64,000 bases of DNA from Rhodohalobacter sp. 614A (GTDB lineage: Bacteria > Bacteroidota > Rhodothermia > Balneolales > Balneolaceae). The first letter of the stretch is position 1, and the number at the start of each line of letters is the position of its first letter. Shown here piece after piece: positions 3,627 to 43,416 of the stretch. The position numbers and the translations under genes are program-made. The DNA lies in assembly GCF_021462415.1 (NCBI RefSeq), contig NZ_JAKEDS010000001.1, positions 1,522,273 to 1,586,272 of the forward strand, read 5' to 3'. The notes beneath the pieces are model-generated. The model saw only the letters and a program-made list of their open reading frames with translations. It made no database searches and had not been told where the DNA came from.

Positions 3627-4712
3627 TTGAAAAAGAAGAATAGTTCATCGGGTACACGTTCAGCCAGGTCGGAACGAAGAAAATCAGAAGAAACGAAAGC
3701 GAAACACTGGGCAAAGGAATGGCTGGATGCATTGGTTTGGGCCGCTATAGCCGCAATTATTCTCCGAACATTCTTTTTTGGCGCCTACCGAATTCCCACC
3801 CCAAGTATGGAAAAAACCCTTCTGACGGGTGATTTTCTGATTGTGAGCAAGCTTGCCTACGGCCCGCGCACCCCAATGACTCTTTCCATTCCATTTACGG
3901 ACATTTACATGCCGGGAGTTAACTTGCCGTGGACACGCATTCCCGGTTATACCGATATCAAACGAAATGATATCGTGGTTTTTAATTATCCGATTGATGT
4001 AGCGCCGATTTCCGTTAAGACCAATTATATAAAACGGGCTGTCGGAATACCTGGAGACACGCTTCGGCTGGACAATAAAGTACTCTATGTAAACGGGGAA
4101 GAAGAGCAGAGTTTTGATACGTTTATGTTCAATCACCGCGTAGATGTTCGGGATCGCATTCGTCTCAGTCCCACAAAAATCCGTGAAGCCGGTGCTTCGC
4201 TGGTTCAAAGTGGAGATGGATATCACATCATTAATATGACGGAACAAACAGCCGGGGAAATGCAGGGATGGCCGGAAATTGAGAGTGTTCAAAAATTTGC
4301 ATTGCCGGATGAATACGATGGTTTCAGCCGCCGCGGATTCAATTTTTCCAACGGGTTTGCCAATCACGACAACATGAAGGAATTCGTGGTTCCAAAAGCG
4401 GGAATGGAAGTCACACTTACGGCTGAAAATTTTCATATTTATGAAGATATCCTGCTCCGGTACGAGCGAAATATGGTAGAAAGAAACGGCTCCCAGTTTA
4501 TGATCAACGGTGTAGAAACCAACACGTATACCATTCAGCAGGATTATTACTTTATGATGGGAGACAATCGCGACGACAGTGAAGACAGCCGCTTTTGGGG
4601 ATTTGTACCGGAAGATCATGTGATTGGAAAGGCCGGTATCATCTACTTCTCATGGGATAGCGAAAACTGGCTGCCGCGTTTCAGCAGAATTTTTGATGTG
4701 ATTCATTCCTGA
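3627..4712 (+). CDS. lepB: Signal peptidase I
   Basis: Inner-membrane serine protease that removes Sec and Tat signal peptides. Starts at a TTG (3627); the first in-frame ATG lies in the catalytic PSME motif, so a non-ATG start is required. The N-terminus is very basic, followed by one membrane segment (about residues 33-52) and PTPSMEKTL with nucleophile Ser60. The general base is Lys136 in YIKRAVGIPGDTLRL. The C-terminal signature MGDNRDDSEDSRFWGFV is intact. At 361 residues it is longer than the roughly 320 of E. coli, with a segment of about 130 residues (roughly 160-300) between the Lys motif and MGDNRD. Such enlarged LepBs are known in Bacteroidota. The gene lies in a run with lepA and tag. 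Confidence 0.95.
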   Translation: MKKKNSSSGTRSARSERRKSEETKAKHWAKEWLDALVWAAIAAIILRTFFFGAYRIPTPSMEKTLLTGDFLIVSKLAYGPRTPMTLSIPFTDIYMPGVNLPWTRIPGYTDIKRNDIVVFNYPIDVAPISVKTNYIKRAVGIPGDTLRLDNKVLYVNGEEEQSFDTFMFNHRVDVRDRIRLSPTKIREAGASLVQSGDGYHIINMTEQTAGEMQGWPEIESVQKFALPDEYDGFSRRGFNFSNGFANHDNMKEFVVPKAGMEVTLTAENFHIYEDILLRYERNMVERNGSQFMINGVETNTYTIQQDYYFMMGDNRDDSEDSRFWGFVPEDHVIGKAGIIYFSWDSENWLPRFSRIFDVIHS

Positions 4713-28294: not shown

Positions 28295-28538
28295 AAAATT
28301 TTAGCTGAATATACTCATCTGATGACTTTCTGATGATTGTAAAGTTGATTCTAAATTGAATGTAACGATGAATGCCGCCTAAATCGTTTTCCTGAAAAAA
28401 CCGGCTGATTTTATAAGAGCTTGTAAAAAAAGAGAAATAGATTCATTTTTTTCTTGAAAATGGATGCAAAAAACGTCAACATAGAAGCGCTTACGTTATT
28501 TGAAAACCATAACATAGAATTAAACAGATTTACTGAAT

Positions 28539-41179: not shown

Positions 41180-41459
41180 TCCATTCATATAACTTTTTCT
41201 ACATAAAAGTAGATGAGTTTAAGCGCTGAATATCTACTATTCGCGCAAGATTATATATTCTTCACGTGATTTTTTGCCATTATTTTCCCGAAATATTCTC
41301 AATATGCTGAAATATAAAATATGAAAGCGCTTTTTTGATGGTTATGAGTCTTCTACAGGATCCGTCAAGAAATACGATTAGTTTTATTTAAATCATTTCG
41401 ATCCTGAGGATAATTTAGTATCGTTCATCTTATGAATTTGTTTTAACAAGATTCTTTAA
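41180..41459. other. AT-rich intergenic region upstream of the cysH leader
   Basis: 280 bp without a gene. It should contain the cysH promoter. TAATTTAG at 41411-41418 and TATGAATTTG at 41431-41440 are loose matches to the Bacteroidota -7 box, but neither has a clear -33 partner. Confidence 0.4.
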
Positions 41460-41471
41460 CCACTACCCAAT

Positions 41472-41534
41472 ATGATTTTTGCTATTTCGTGTTGTTGTTG
41501 CTGTTGCTCAAAAAGTTTGTGCAGCCTGATGTAA
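41472..41534 (+). CDS. Cys-rich leader peptide of cysH
   Basis: A 20-codon ORF beginning MIFAIS, then six consecutive Cys codons (41490-41507; TGT, TGT, TGT, TGC, TGT, TGC), then SKSL, another Cys (41520-41522), SLM and TAA. Seven of twenty residues are Cys, normally the rarest or near-rarest amino acid. The mixture of TGT and TGC argues against a plain triplet-repeat expansion alone. No clear Shine-Dalgarno precedes it, which is normal for this phylum. It ends 137 bases before cysH, with a terminator between. It is too short to be a functional enzyme; control by translation is the likely role. Confidence 0.75.
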   Translation: MIFAISCCCCCCSKSLCSLM

Positions 41535-41575
41535 ACGGGTAGTGGGGAGTTAAAAATTTGATCGATAAGTATGAT

Positions 41576-41608
41576 AACCCGCCGCCTGTACAGGATGCGG
41601 GTTTTTTT
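41576..41608 (+). terminator. Intrinsic terminator between the Cys leader and cysH
   Basis: AACCCGC (41576-41582) pairs with GCGGGTT (41597-41603). An inner CCTG-ta-CAGG stem stacks above a two-by-two internal loop, and seven T residues follow. It lies inside the 5' leader, 63 bases before the cysH start, so it can only serve conditional termination of cysH or termination of something upstream. Confidence 0.9.
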
Positions 41609-41670
41609 ATGCTTATAAATCGATGTTGAAGTAGAAAATAAAGGCGCTTGGCCAACGAATAAAACGTTTT

Positions 41671-42414
41671 ATGAACCGACAGGAAAAGCAAGTACTAACA
41701 GATAGGAAGTTTGAGATTGAAAATTTGTCCGACCTGAATCATCAGTTTGAATATCAGTCGCCGGATGATTTGCTTCTTTGGGGGGCAGAACACTTTGGGA
41801 ATACCATTGTATTGGGAACCGGTTTTGGCCCTTCGGGCGTGGTTTTGATTCACAAAATCACGAAGCTCCAACTGCCGATTAAAATCTTTTGCCTGGACAC
41901 AAACCTGCTGTTTAAAGAAACCTACTCATTGTGGGATAAGATTGAGGATCGGTTTGATATTCGGATTGAGTCCGTTTCACCCATTCTGACACTTGAAGGA
42001 CAGGCCAAACGTCACAAAGAAGAACTTTGGAAAACAGATCCCGACAAATGCTGCTATCTTCGGAAAGTACTGCCGCTTCAAAAATACCTGAGTAATAAGA
42101 AAGCCTGGATTACCGGGTTGCGGCGTTCGCAATCAGAGATGCGGAAAGATGTCGGCAAAATTGAGTGGGATCCGGGAAACAAAGTCTACAAACTAAACCC
42201 GCTTGCCACGTGGACTCAGGAAGAAGTTTGGGAGTATATCGAAAAAAATGACCTTCCTTATAACCCGCTTCATGATGAAGGGTATCCAAGCATTGGATGC
42301 ATTCCCTGTACGGAACCTTCTACCGATCAAAGTGAGAGATCGGGCAGATGGAAAAATCTTGAGAAAACCGAGTGTGGAATTCATCTTCCCAGTTTGAAGA
42401 ACAAGCTGAAATAG
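41671..42414 (+). CDS. cysH: Assimilatory adenylyl-sulfate reductase (iron-sulfur CysH)
   Basis: 247 residues. Reduces activated sulfate (APS, possibly PAPS) to sulfite in cysteine synthesis. GAEHFGNTIVLGTGFGPSG is the nucleotide loop. Cys127-Cys128 and Cys210..Cys213 (DKCC and GCIPC) are the four ligands of the [4Fe-4S] cluster found in APS reductases and absent from the E. coli PAPS type. Cys235 in ECGIH is the catalytic cysteine. TGLRRSQSEMRKDV is the family signature. There are no sulfate-assimilation partner genes next to it in this window. Expression is probably controlled by the upstream Cys-codon leader and terminator. Confidence 0.95.
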   Translation: MNRQEKQVLTDRKFEIENLSDLNHQFEYQSPDDLLLWGAEHFGNTIVLGTGFGPSGVVLIHKITKLQLPIKIFCLDTNLLFKETYSLWDKIEDRFDIRIESVSPILTLEGQAKRHKEELWKTDPDKCCYLRKVLPLQKYLSNKKAWITGLRRSQSEMRKDVGKIEWDPGNKVYKLNPLATWTQEEVWEYIEKNDLPYNPLHDEGYPSIGCIPCTEPSTDQSERSGRWKNLEKTECGIHLPSLKNKLK

Positions 42415-42579: not shown

Positions 42580-43416
42580 ATGGAAATTGAAGCTATCAAA
42601 ATGTGGTTTTTCGATTTAAGTCCGGTCATGCAGGCACTTATGGGCGGATTATTTACCTGGTTTCTAACAGCACTAGGGGCCGCCCTGGTTTTCTTTACAA
42701 AAAATGTAGGCTACAAATTATTAGACACCATGCTCGGCTTTGCCGCCGGAGTCATGATTGCCGCGAGTGTGTGGTCGTTAATCATTCCATCCCTGGATAT
42801 GGCTGAGGGGCAAGGATATATACCATGGATACCGGCTGTTATTGGATTTATGGGAGGGGCACTTTTCTTAAGAATTTGTGATGCTTATTTACCCCACCTT
42901 CATTTAGGTCAGCCCAAACAGGAAGCCGAAGGTGTACAAACAACCTGGCGGCGAACAACCCTTCTTGTGCTTGCTATCACTTTGCATAATATTCCTGAAG
43001 GATTGGCCGTAGGCGTTCTTTTTGGTGCAGCAGCCAGTGGAATTGATCCCACAAGTACGGCCAGTGTTGCTGGCGCTGTAGCATTGGCAATTGGTATAGG
43101 TATACAGAATTTTCCCGAAGGTATGGCAGTATCCATTCCGTTAAGAAGGGAAGGCGTTAGCATAGGGAGAAGTTTTAATTATGGCCAGATGTCAGGAATT
43201 GTTGAACCGATTTCTGCTGTAATTGGTGCGGCAGCTGTTATTATGGTTCAGCCCATTTTGCCATATGCCCTGGCATTTGCAGCCGGAGCAATGATGTTTG
43301 TAGTGGTTGAAGAACTTGTTCCCGAATCGCAGCAACATGGGCACACAGATTTGGCAACTCTCGGTACTATGATCGGATTTTGTACCATGATGGTTCTGGA
43401 TGTGGCTTTAGGCTAA
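42580..43416 (+). CDS. ZIP-family metal transporter
   Basis: 278 residues with about eight membrane helices. The metal path motifs are [17 protein letters not shown] in helix IV and [17 protein letters not shown] in helix V, as in GufA-like ZIPs. [21 protein letters not shown] is the conserved loop with His. ZIPs bring Zn2+, Fe2+ or Mn2+ into the cytoplasm; the substrate cannot be read from these motifs. Start ATG 42580 ([15 protein letters not shown]). The 28-bp palindrome directly upstream suggests metal-dependent repression. Monocistronic. Confidence 0.93.

Follow-up and report, generated by a model that had tools for sequence, protein, structure and literature searches.

The cysH locus and its leader ORF

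The window, meaning here the whole 64,000-nucleotide stretch of Rhodohalobacter sp. 614A that was analysed, contains a gene whose product matched Pfam PF01507 (PAPS_reduct, 156.7 bits) and NCBIfam PRK02090 (256 bits, cut-off 154). Upstream of this cysH gene lies a short ORF (Table 1) in which seven of the 20 codons encode Cys, six of them in a row (codons 7-12, 41490-41507) and the seventh at codon 17 (41520-41522). An earlier note, made from the letters of the window, had described a 20-codon ORF with six consecutive Cys codons plus one more, placed 137 bases before cysH; its coordinates, length and composition proved exact, the family matches bear out its naming of the gene, and its distance agrees with the measured gap of 136 bases between the leader ORF and the cysH start (41671). 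No Shine-Dalgarno-like site was visible for the leader ORF.

Table 1. Features of the cysH leader in the window and tandem arrangements of leaders and SAM-I riboswitches in Balneolales
Feature	Position	Strand	Basis
Near-palindrome GAAAGCGCTTTT, probable DNA operator	41323-41334		Position conserved in Balneolaceae
AT-rich block ATAATTTAGTATCGT, conserved, candidate promoter element	41410-41424	+	By eye
Region 1, CCACTACCC, predicted to pair with region 2 as a protector stem that would free the terminator	41460-41468	+	Complement and fold
Leader peptide ORF MIFAISCCCCCCSKSLCSLM	41472-41534	+	Translation, 20 codons then stop
Region 2, GGGTAGTGGGG, predicted partner of region 1 (off) or of region 3 (antiterminator, on)	41537-41547	+	Pairing, folds
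Region 3, AACCCGCCGCC, terminator 5' arm and predicted alternative partner of region 2	41576-41586	+	Pairing, folds
Region 4 and U-run, GCGGGTTTTTTT, terminator 3' arm and tail	41597-41608	+	Terminator scan, fold
cysH, (phospho)adenylylsulfate reductase, putative regulated gene	41671-42414	+	Pfam PF01507 and NCBIfam PRK02090
Leader-SAM-I tandem, L153	SAM-I 3652-3782, leader about 3890-3957	-	Terminator between
Further leader and SAM-I tandems, mostly before metY	L249, L250, L254, L255, L258-L261, L265, L266, L268, L270, L271		
Further leader and SAM-I tandems (continued), mostly before metY	L273, L277-L286, L288, L289, L291-L295		

After cysH, at 42580-43416, a ZIP/GufA-like metal transporter was recognised by eye, with 91-92% identity in both genomes sharing the poly-Cys leader. 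The window's genome (G000) carries two cysH genes, 58% identical, the second one located on contig 4 within a sulfate-assimilation operon. No match to the ATP-sulfurylase family PF01747 was detected in this genome, and sulfate activation would therefore need the CysDN type or another route.

Two elements were found further upstream of the leader ORF. The near-palindrome, as AAAAGCGCTTTT, occurs in Balneolaceae at a nearly fixed distance of 118-160 nt 5' of leader ORFs, and the full AAGCGCTT is present there in 16 of the 27 leaders checked (e.g., window 41323-41334 and L043 2897-2908), with only 20 copies across 356 kb of loci. As an operator specific for sulfur genes, the AAAGCGCTTTT box was rejected for the window's genome, where similar sites also precede non-sulfur genes, namely SusC/TonB-like, Nqr-like and PEP-carboxykinase-like ones (by eye); given such sites before unrelated genes, it probably belongs to a wider regulator. 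A weaker copy was seen at 28485, 5' of an acetyl-CoA-synthetase-like gene (by eye). The AT-rich block was matched by eye at the equivalent place in the two orthologous leaders described below (ATAATTTGTTATCGT and ATAATTTGTTATTGT), and a sigma-70 promoter scan gave one weak site only, at chance level.

In dinucleotide-preserving shuffles of the intergenic stretch 41180-41670, runs of at least 3, 4, 5 and 6 Cys codons in a short ORF appeared in 155, 8, 0 and 0 cases out of 20,000, respectively. Along the 4.69 Mb genome, TGYx4 is present at 30 overlapping places, mostly out of frame within genes, and the window site is the only one among them that combines an intergenic short ORF with a strong terminator behind it. 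The Cys run of the leader ORF is not due to chance. The only other TGY run accompanied by a terminator-like hairpin (L168) is in frame but was rejected, as it lies antisense within a gene.

Alternative pairings in the leader RNA

The terminator scan identified an intrinsic terminator (AACCCGC...GCGGGTTTTTTT) spanning 41576-41608, between the leader ORF and cysH. Region 1, located 5' of the start codon, is a perfect 9-bp complement of GGGTAGTGG (41537-41545), and this inverted repeat brackets the leader ORF. Region 2 begins 2 nt past the leader stop codon, so that a ribosome placed on that codon would mask it. Of the switch proposed in the earlier note, the half concerning the ORF stands, to which the terminator and the 1:2:3:4 anatomy, not seen at that time, are now added.

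The predicted folds gave -19.2 kcal/mol for the 2:3 antiterminator against -15.0 kcal/mol for the terminator, the 1:2 stem appeared in predicted leader folds, and the fold of the whole leader was better than those of 200 out of 200 dinucleotide shuffles (z = -3.99). In an RNA cut off ahead of region 4 and carrying a ribosome on the Cys codons, the predicted fold contains 2:3; a ribosome placed on the stop codon instead blocks region 2, and the predicted structure of the full-length RNA then has the 3:4 terminator. A 30-nt mask over the Cys codons leaves region 1 free, and the full-length equilibrium fold under this mask still contains 1:2 and the terminator; the "on" state would therefore rest on kinetic folding or on steric exclusion. 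In some relatives (L063, L065), region 1 is found directly before the Cys codons, which is the classical geometry. The 2:3 core of the window (8 bp) includes one A-C mismatch, and its score alone was unexceptional with respect to shuffles (p about 0.21). No Rfam family was detected in the window at the gathering threshold, Rfam covariance models (T-box and SAM riboswitch included) gave no match up to E = 1 in 41180-41700, and no conserved structure beyond 1:2 and 2:3:4 was found in the leader.

A search of the order showed that the closest orthologues of the window cysH are those of G067 and G068, from the same genus and 73-74% identical to it. The earlier note had named a lack of Cys-rich ORFs in the cysH leaders of relatives as what would speak against its proposal; both orthologues carry the leader, with the Cys run, the inverted repeat and the terminator kept at the same place. 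Their leader peptides read MFFNISCCCCFAEKRCDL and MLLNISCCCCACKKCNH, the codon changes with respect to the window are synonymous (Cys TGT/TGC, Ser TCG/TCA), and the start, the Cys run, the later Cys and the stop are positioned as in the window with respect to regions 1 and 2. Other reading frames of the leader ORF are not conserved, and the poly-Leu frame ends after 6 codons in L081. Region 1 shows wobble-compatible changes in the orthologues (CCACUGCC and CCGCUACC against GGUAGUGG), and the 1:2 stem is perfect in the window and in both of them, this stem being variable among the Cys/Met leaders of relatives. In both orthologues, 8 out of 8 positions of the 2:3 antiterminator core pair. The gene order 5' of cysH is also identical in the two of them, and synteny alone therefore does not tie the terminator to cysH.

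Across 35 leaders, 274 of the 280 positions of the 2:3 pairing were paired. When partners were swapped between genomes, with region 2 chosen by consensus only and without reference to region 3, the mean was 266 and none of 20,000 swaps was as good as 274. Among the 17 distinct 2:3 combinations, 95.6% of the cells were paired and 10 cells had changed on both sides, with three pairs changed on both sides, e.g., GAUAGUGG/CCACUAUC and GAUAGCGG/CCGCUAUC. The covariation score of these 17 combinations exceeded that of all 500 shuffles and of every register slide, a strong signal rather than a formal phylogenetic test, as the shuffles do not fully correct for genome relatedness. Ungapped scoring of 2:3 had no success for the leaders of TonB-type receptors and sfnG; read by eye, the pairing in the TonB leaders includes a bulge (GAUGA-UA-GUGG with CCAC-UCAUC).

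Cys/Met leaders in Balneolales and beyond

The sulfate-assimilation operon of contig 4 encodes a rhodanese, a protein of the nitrite/sulfite-reductase family, a uroporphyrinogen methyltransferase type, CysH and a siroheme synthase type, and is preceded by a leader that reads MNQKKPTTNILAPAHRNMCCMMCCMMMPRKVVERIC, followed by a terminator. Within Balneolales, 30 sulfate-assimilation operons that contain cysH, the contig 4 operon among them, could be checked because their start lies on the contig, and direct reading of their upstream regions revealed a Cys/Met leader at the start of every one. Examples of leader peptides in relatives are ICCMMHTCAAMICCMCMMM, MCCMCMCCCMHM, NCCCMCMCMMC and FCLCFMICCM. 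In frame, the leaders of relatives contain 15.1% Cys and 16.8% Met; their peptide sequences differ, and the order and spacing of Cys and Met vary between genomes at constant composition, as codon sensing predicts and not as expected for a specific arrest peptide.

In addition, solo cysH genes lack a leader in at least six relatives and carry a Cys/Met leader in two others (L056, L057), whereas the leader made only of poly-Cys is consistently linked to cysH in just three genomes. The poly-Cys form is a local variant, the general form being one that mixes Cys and Met codons. The earlier suggestion that the lineage uses a Cys-codon leader is supported by the Cys/Met leaders before all the checkable operons, with the corrections that the Cys-only form is local and that solo cysH genes of at least six relatives have no leader.

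A covariance model built from the Balneolales leaders was searched against the window's genome and matched the contig 4 operon (93.5 bits), the window leader (49.1 bits), a leader of trpE (38.4 bits) and a leader of metY that reads MKNLTNNIDYCICIMCMCCCST (32.7 bits). Weaker matches (G000:C5:15822, C2:870948 and C1:204807) were rejected as terminators without a Cys or Met leader. The leader of trpE (NCBIfam) has three Trp codons and the layout of the cysH leader, and serves as an internal control because its codons match its pathway and the layout is the same. A Trp-codon leader (WWW) with a GCAGTGG/CCACTGC antiterminator was located before trpE at L140 (G000:C2:705543-705680), and further trpE WWW leaders were found at L138, L145, L146, L150-L152, L158 and L159. 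By their predicted layout, the trpE leaders are textbook trp attenuators in Balneolales.

Cys/Met leaders were also detected 5' of DASS-family anion permeases (L122-L128, L131, L148, L149), of TonB-type receptors (by eye; L129, L132, L134, L137, L144) and of sfnG, encoding the dimethylsulfone monooxygenase SfnG (L133, L143, L161). The position of these genes behind the leaders suggests that their products may serve the uptake or use of sulfur compounds.

Balneolales have many SAM-I riboswitches. At metY of the window's genome, one of them (RF00162, 76.5 bits) starts 39 nt behind the terminator of the leader. A Cys/Met leader was present just upstream of 19 of 21 SAM-I sites, 20 of these 21 sites belonging to a hand-picked set and most being before metY, versus 2 out of 1,050 shuffled upstream sequences. 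The combination of leader and SAM-I (Table 1) is a conserved serial arrangement of two different predicted sensors.

Outside the order, a class-wide search with the covariance model gave no strong match. Direct reading of upstream regions revealed divergent, Cys-rich leaders 5' of sulfur operons, with a terminator or a hairpin in six further genomes of the class (L192, L201, L204, L206, L208, L209) and in 3 of the 20 genomes taken from the rest of the phylum (L212, L224, L227), and with no obvious terminator in two more of this last sample (L220, L226). These leaders are unrelated in sequence to those of Balneolales.

Proposed mechanism, alternatives and relation to known systems

We propose, with a probability of about 0.9, that the window leader is a trp-type ribosome-mediated transcription attenuator of cysH that reads cysteine codons. 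What can be read directly in the sequence comprises the ORF, the conservation of its Cys frame, the terminator, the covarying alternative pairing and the association with the pathway; the switch would respond to cysteine and, in relatives, to methionine. The leaders of relatives, together with the covarying terminator, antiterminator and protector stem, thus support the earlier proposal that cysH is switched by a leader whose Cys codons sense charged tRNA-Cys; that the switch responds to cysteine we infer.

With enough Cys-tRNA(Cys), the ribosome translating the ORF would pass the six Cys codons up to the stop at 41532 and cover region 2; 1:2 would then close, and region 3 would be free to pair with region 4, forming the terminator and ending transcription before cysH. 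With scarce Cys-tRNA(Cys), the ribosome would stall on the Cys run and leave region 2 free to pair with the emerging region 3, so that no terminator would form and readthrough into cysH would be raised. Without translation, 1:2 and 3:4 would keep cysH off. The "on" state would require that 2:3 forms first, or that the ribosome sterically excludes 1:2.

The cysH leader would be part of a Balneolales regulon in which Cys/Met leaders control sulfate reduction, anion permeases, TonB receptors, sfnG and metY, with divergent forms elsewhere in Bacteroidota sensu GTDB. It seems likely that Balneolales and, in divergent form, other Bacteroidota (GTDB) have a regulon of mixed Cys/Met leaders in which one ribosome would read the charging of two tRNAs, that the metY leader in series with SAM-I would make a two-terminator gate needing both low sulfur amino acids and low SAM, and that the poly-Cys leader of the window would be a cysteine-only offshoot.

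Among the alternatives, the one that survives best, although unlikely, is that the leader peptide or nascent chain is itself the sensor or the product, for instance in thiol-rich metal or redox sensing as proposed for some copper-responsive upstream ORFs, tRNA charging not being read. Cys- and Met-rich peptides bind Cu(I), and MCCM-like motifs are frequent in relatives. However, the order and spacing of Cys and Met change between genomes while the composition stays, the regulated genes serve sulfur supply and not metal resistance, and a Trp-codon leader of the same layout precedes trpE, where the amino acid is the pathway product. Less probable still is the control of cysH by a metabolite- or tRNA-binding RNA, either a riboswitch or a T-box, with an incidental short ORF: the leader is structured and has a terminator, and SAM-I riboswitches abound in the order, but against it stand the lack of Rfam matches in the leader and of conserved structure beyond 1:2 and 2:3:4, together with the conservation of the Cys frame through synonymous changes. 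A low-complexity TGT/TGC stretch that by chance lies beside the ordinary terminator of the upstream gene is very improbable, for although the genome has TGY runs at other places, most of them within genes and out of frame, no such run arose in 20,000 shuffles, the run is conserved in the orthologues, and the terminator is about 400 nt behind the upstream gene and has a 5' arm that covaries with region 2 in relatives. Scarcely credible, too, is a leucine attenuator decoded in another frame (VLLLLLL in +2, that is, V followed by six Leu in the window, or Val/Ala in +1), as the Leu frame shrinks to MLLLFRR or MLLLRM* in the orthologues, whereas the Cys frame retains the start, the Cys run, the second Cys and a stop immediately 5' of region 2, and the gene is cysH.

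The attenuator proposed here shares with those of the trp type (Yanofsky model) a short ORF with a run of end-product codons and a biosynthetic gene 3' of it, a protector stem 1:2, an antiterminator 2:3 that uses the 5' arm of the terminator, and an intrinsic terminator 3:4. It differs from them in that the window leader would read Cys (Cys and Met in most relatives), and in that its region 1 is found 5' of the start codon and does not overlap the control codons.

Polycysteine short ORFs have been predicted before cys operons in Mycobacterium, P. acnes and B. longum, these being leaderless and with no conserved terminator hairpin (Seliverstov 2005, PMC1262725), and cysteine-responsive attenuation in mycobacteria is credited to Canestrari 2020 (Mol Microbiol 114:93) by papers that cite it (PMC13236596, PMC9094748); the cysteine-rich mycobacterial leaders invoked in the earlier note are therefore found in the literature. 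The window leader shares with the mycobacterial ORFs a run of Cys codons before sulfur/cysteine genes, but shows a probably internal ORF, an intrinsic terminator and a covarying antiterminator, and no sequence relationship was seen. The conserved region 1 just 5' of its ATG would place the transcript start ahead of the ORF, and not at the start codon as in a leaderless mRNA. A further case is uORFC-8-2, a motif found in Rhodobacterales 5' of cysS, where an intrinsic terminator follows the tandem Cys codons 14 and 15 (PMC8632094) and for which the same logic has been proposed. That alphaproteobacterial motif has two Cys codons, whereas the window leader, in Balneolaceae and before cysH, has them at codons 7-12 and gave no Rfam match, and the Balneolales leaders, in another phylum, consist of Cys runs or Cys/Met mixes before sulfur-assimilation genes.

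Within the same GTDB phylum, and with the same proposed class of mechanism, leader-peptide attenuation has been noted before amino-acid operons of Flavobacterium psychrophilum in a report that, in its main text, neither specifies the amino acid nor mentions a case involving cysteine or sulfur (PMC9723704). The SAM-I (S-box) riboswitch RF00162 controls the same pathway and is located directly behind the metY Cys/Met leader, but it is a different sensor, and no SAM-I was found in the cysH leader. The open-licence literature searched contained no Cys or Cys/Met leader in Bacteroidota/Balneolota, in line with the earlier note, which knew of no described example there, and no tandem of leader and SAM-I. 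Cys-codon attenuators are already known in Actinobacteria and Rhodobacterales; their presence in Balneolales, the mixing of Cys with Met and the tandem with SAM-I seem not to have been described in that literature.

If the proposed mechanism is true, a large and little-studied lineage would use codons in transcription attenuators to sense its sulfur amino acids; nature would then have provided, in the mixed Cys/Met leaders, a sensor for two amino acids and, in the tandem of leader and SAM-I, a serial logic gate. In addition, the conserved anatomy of the leaders names targets such as permeases, TonB receptors and sfnG, which may aid in annotating transporters whose substrate is otherwise unknown.
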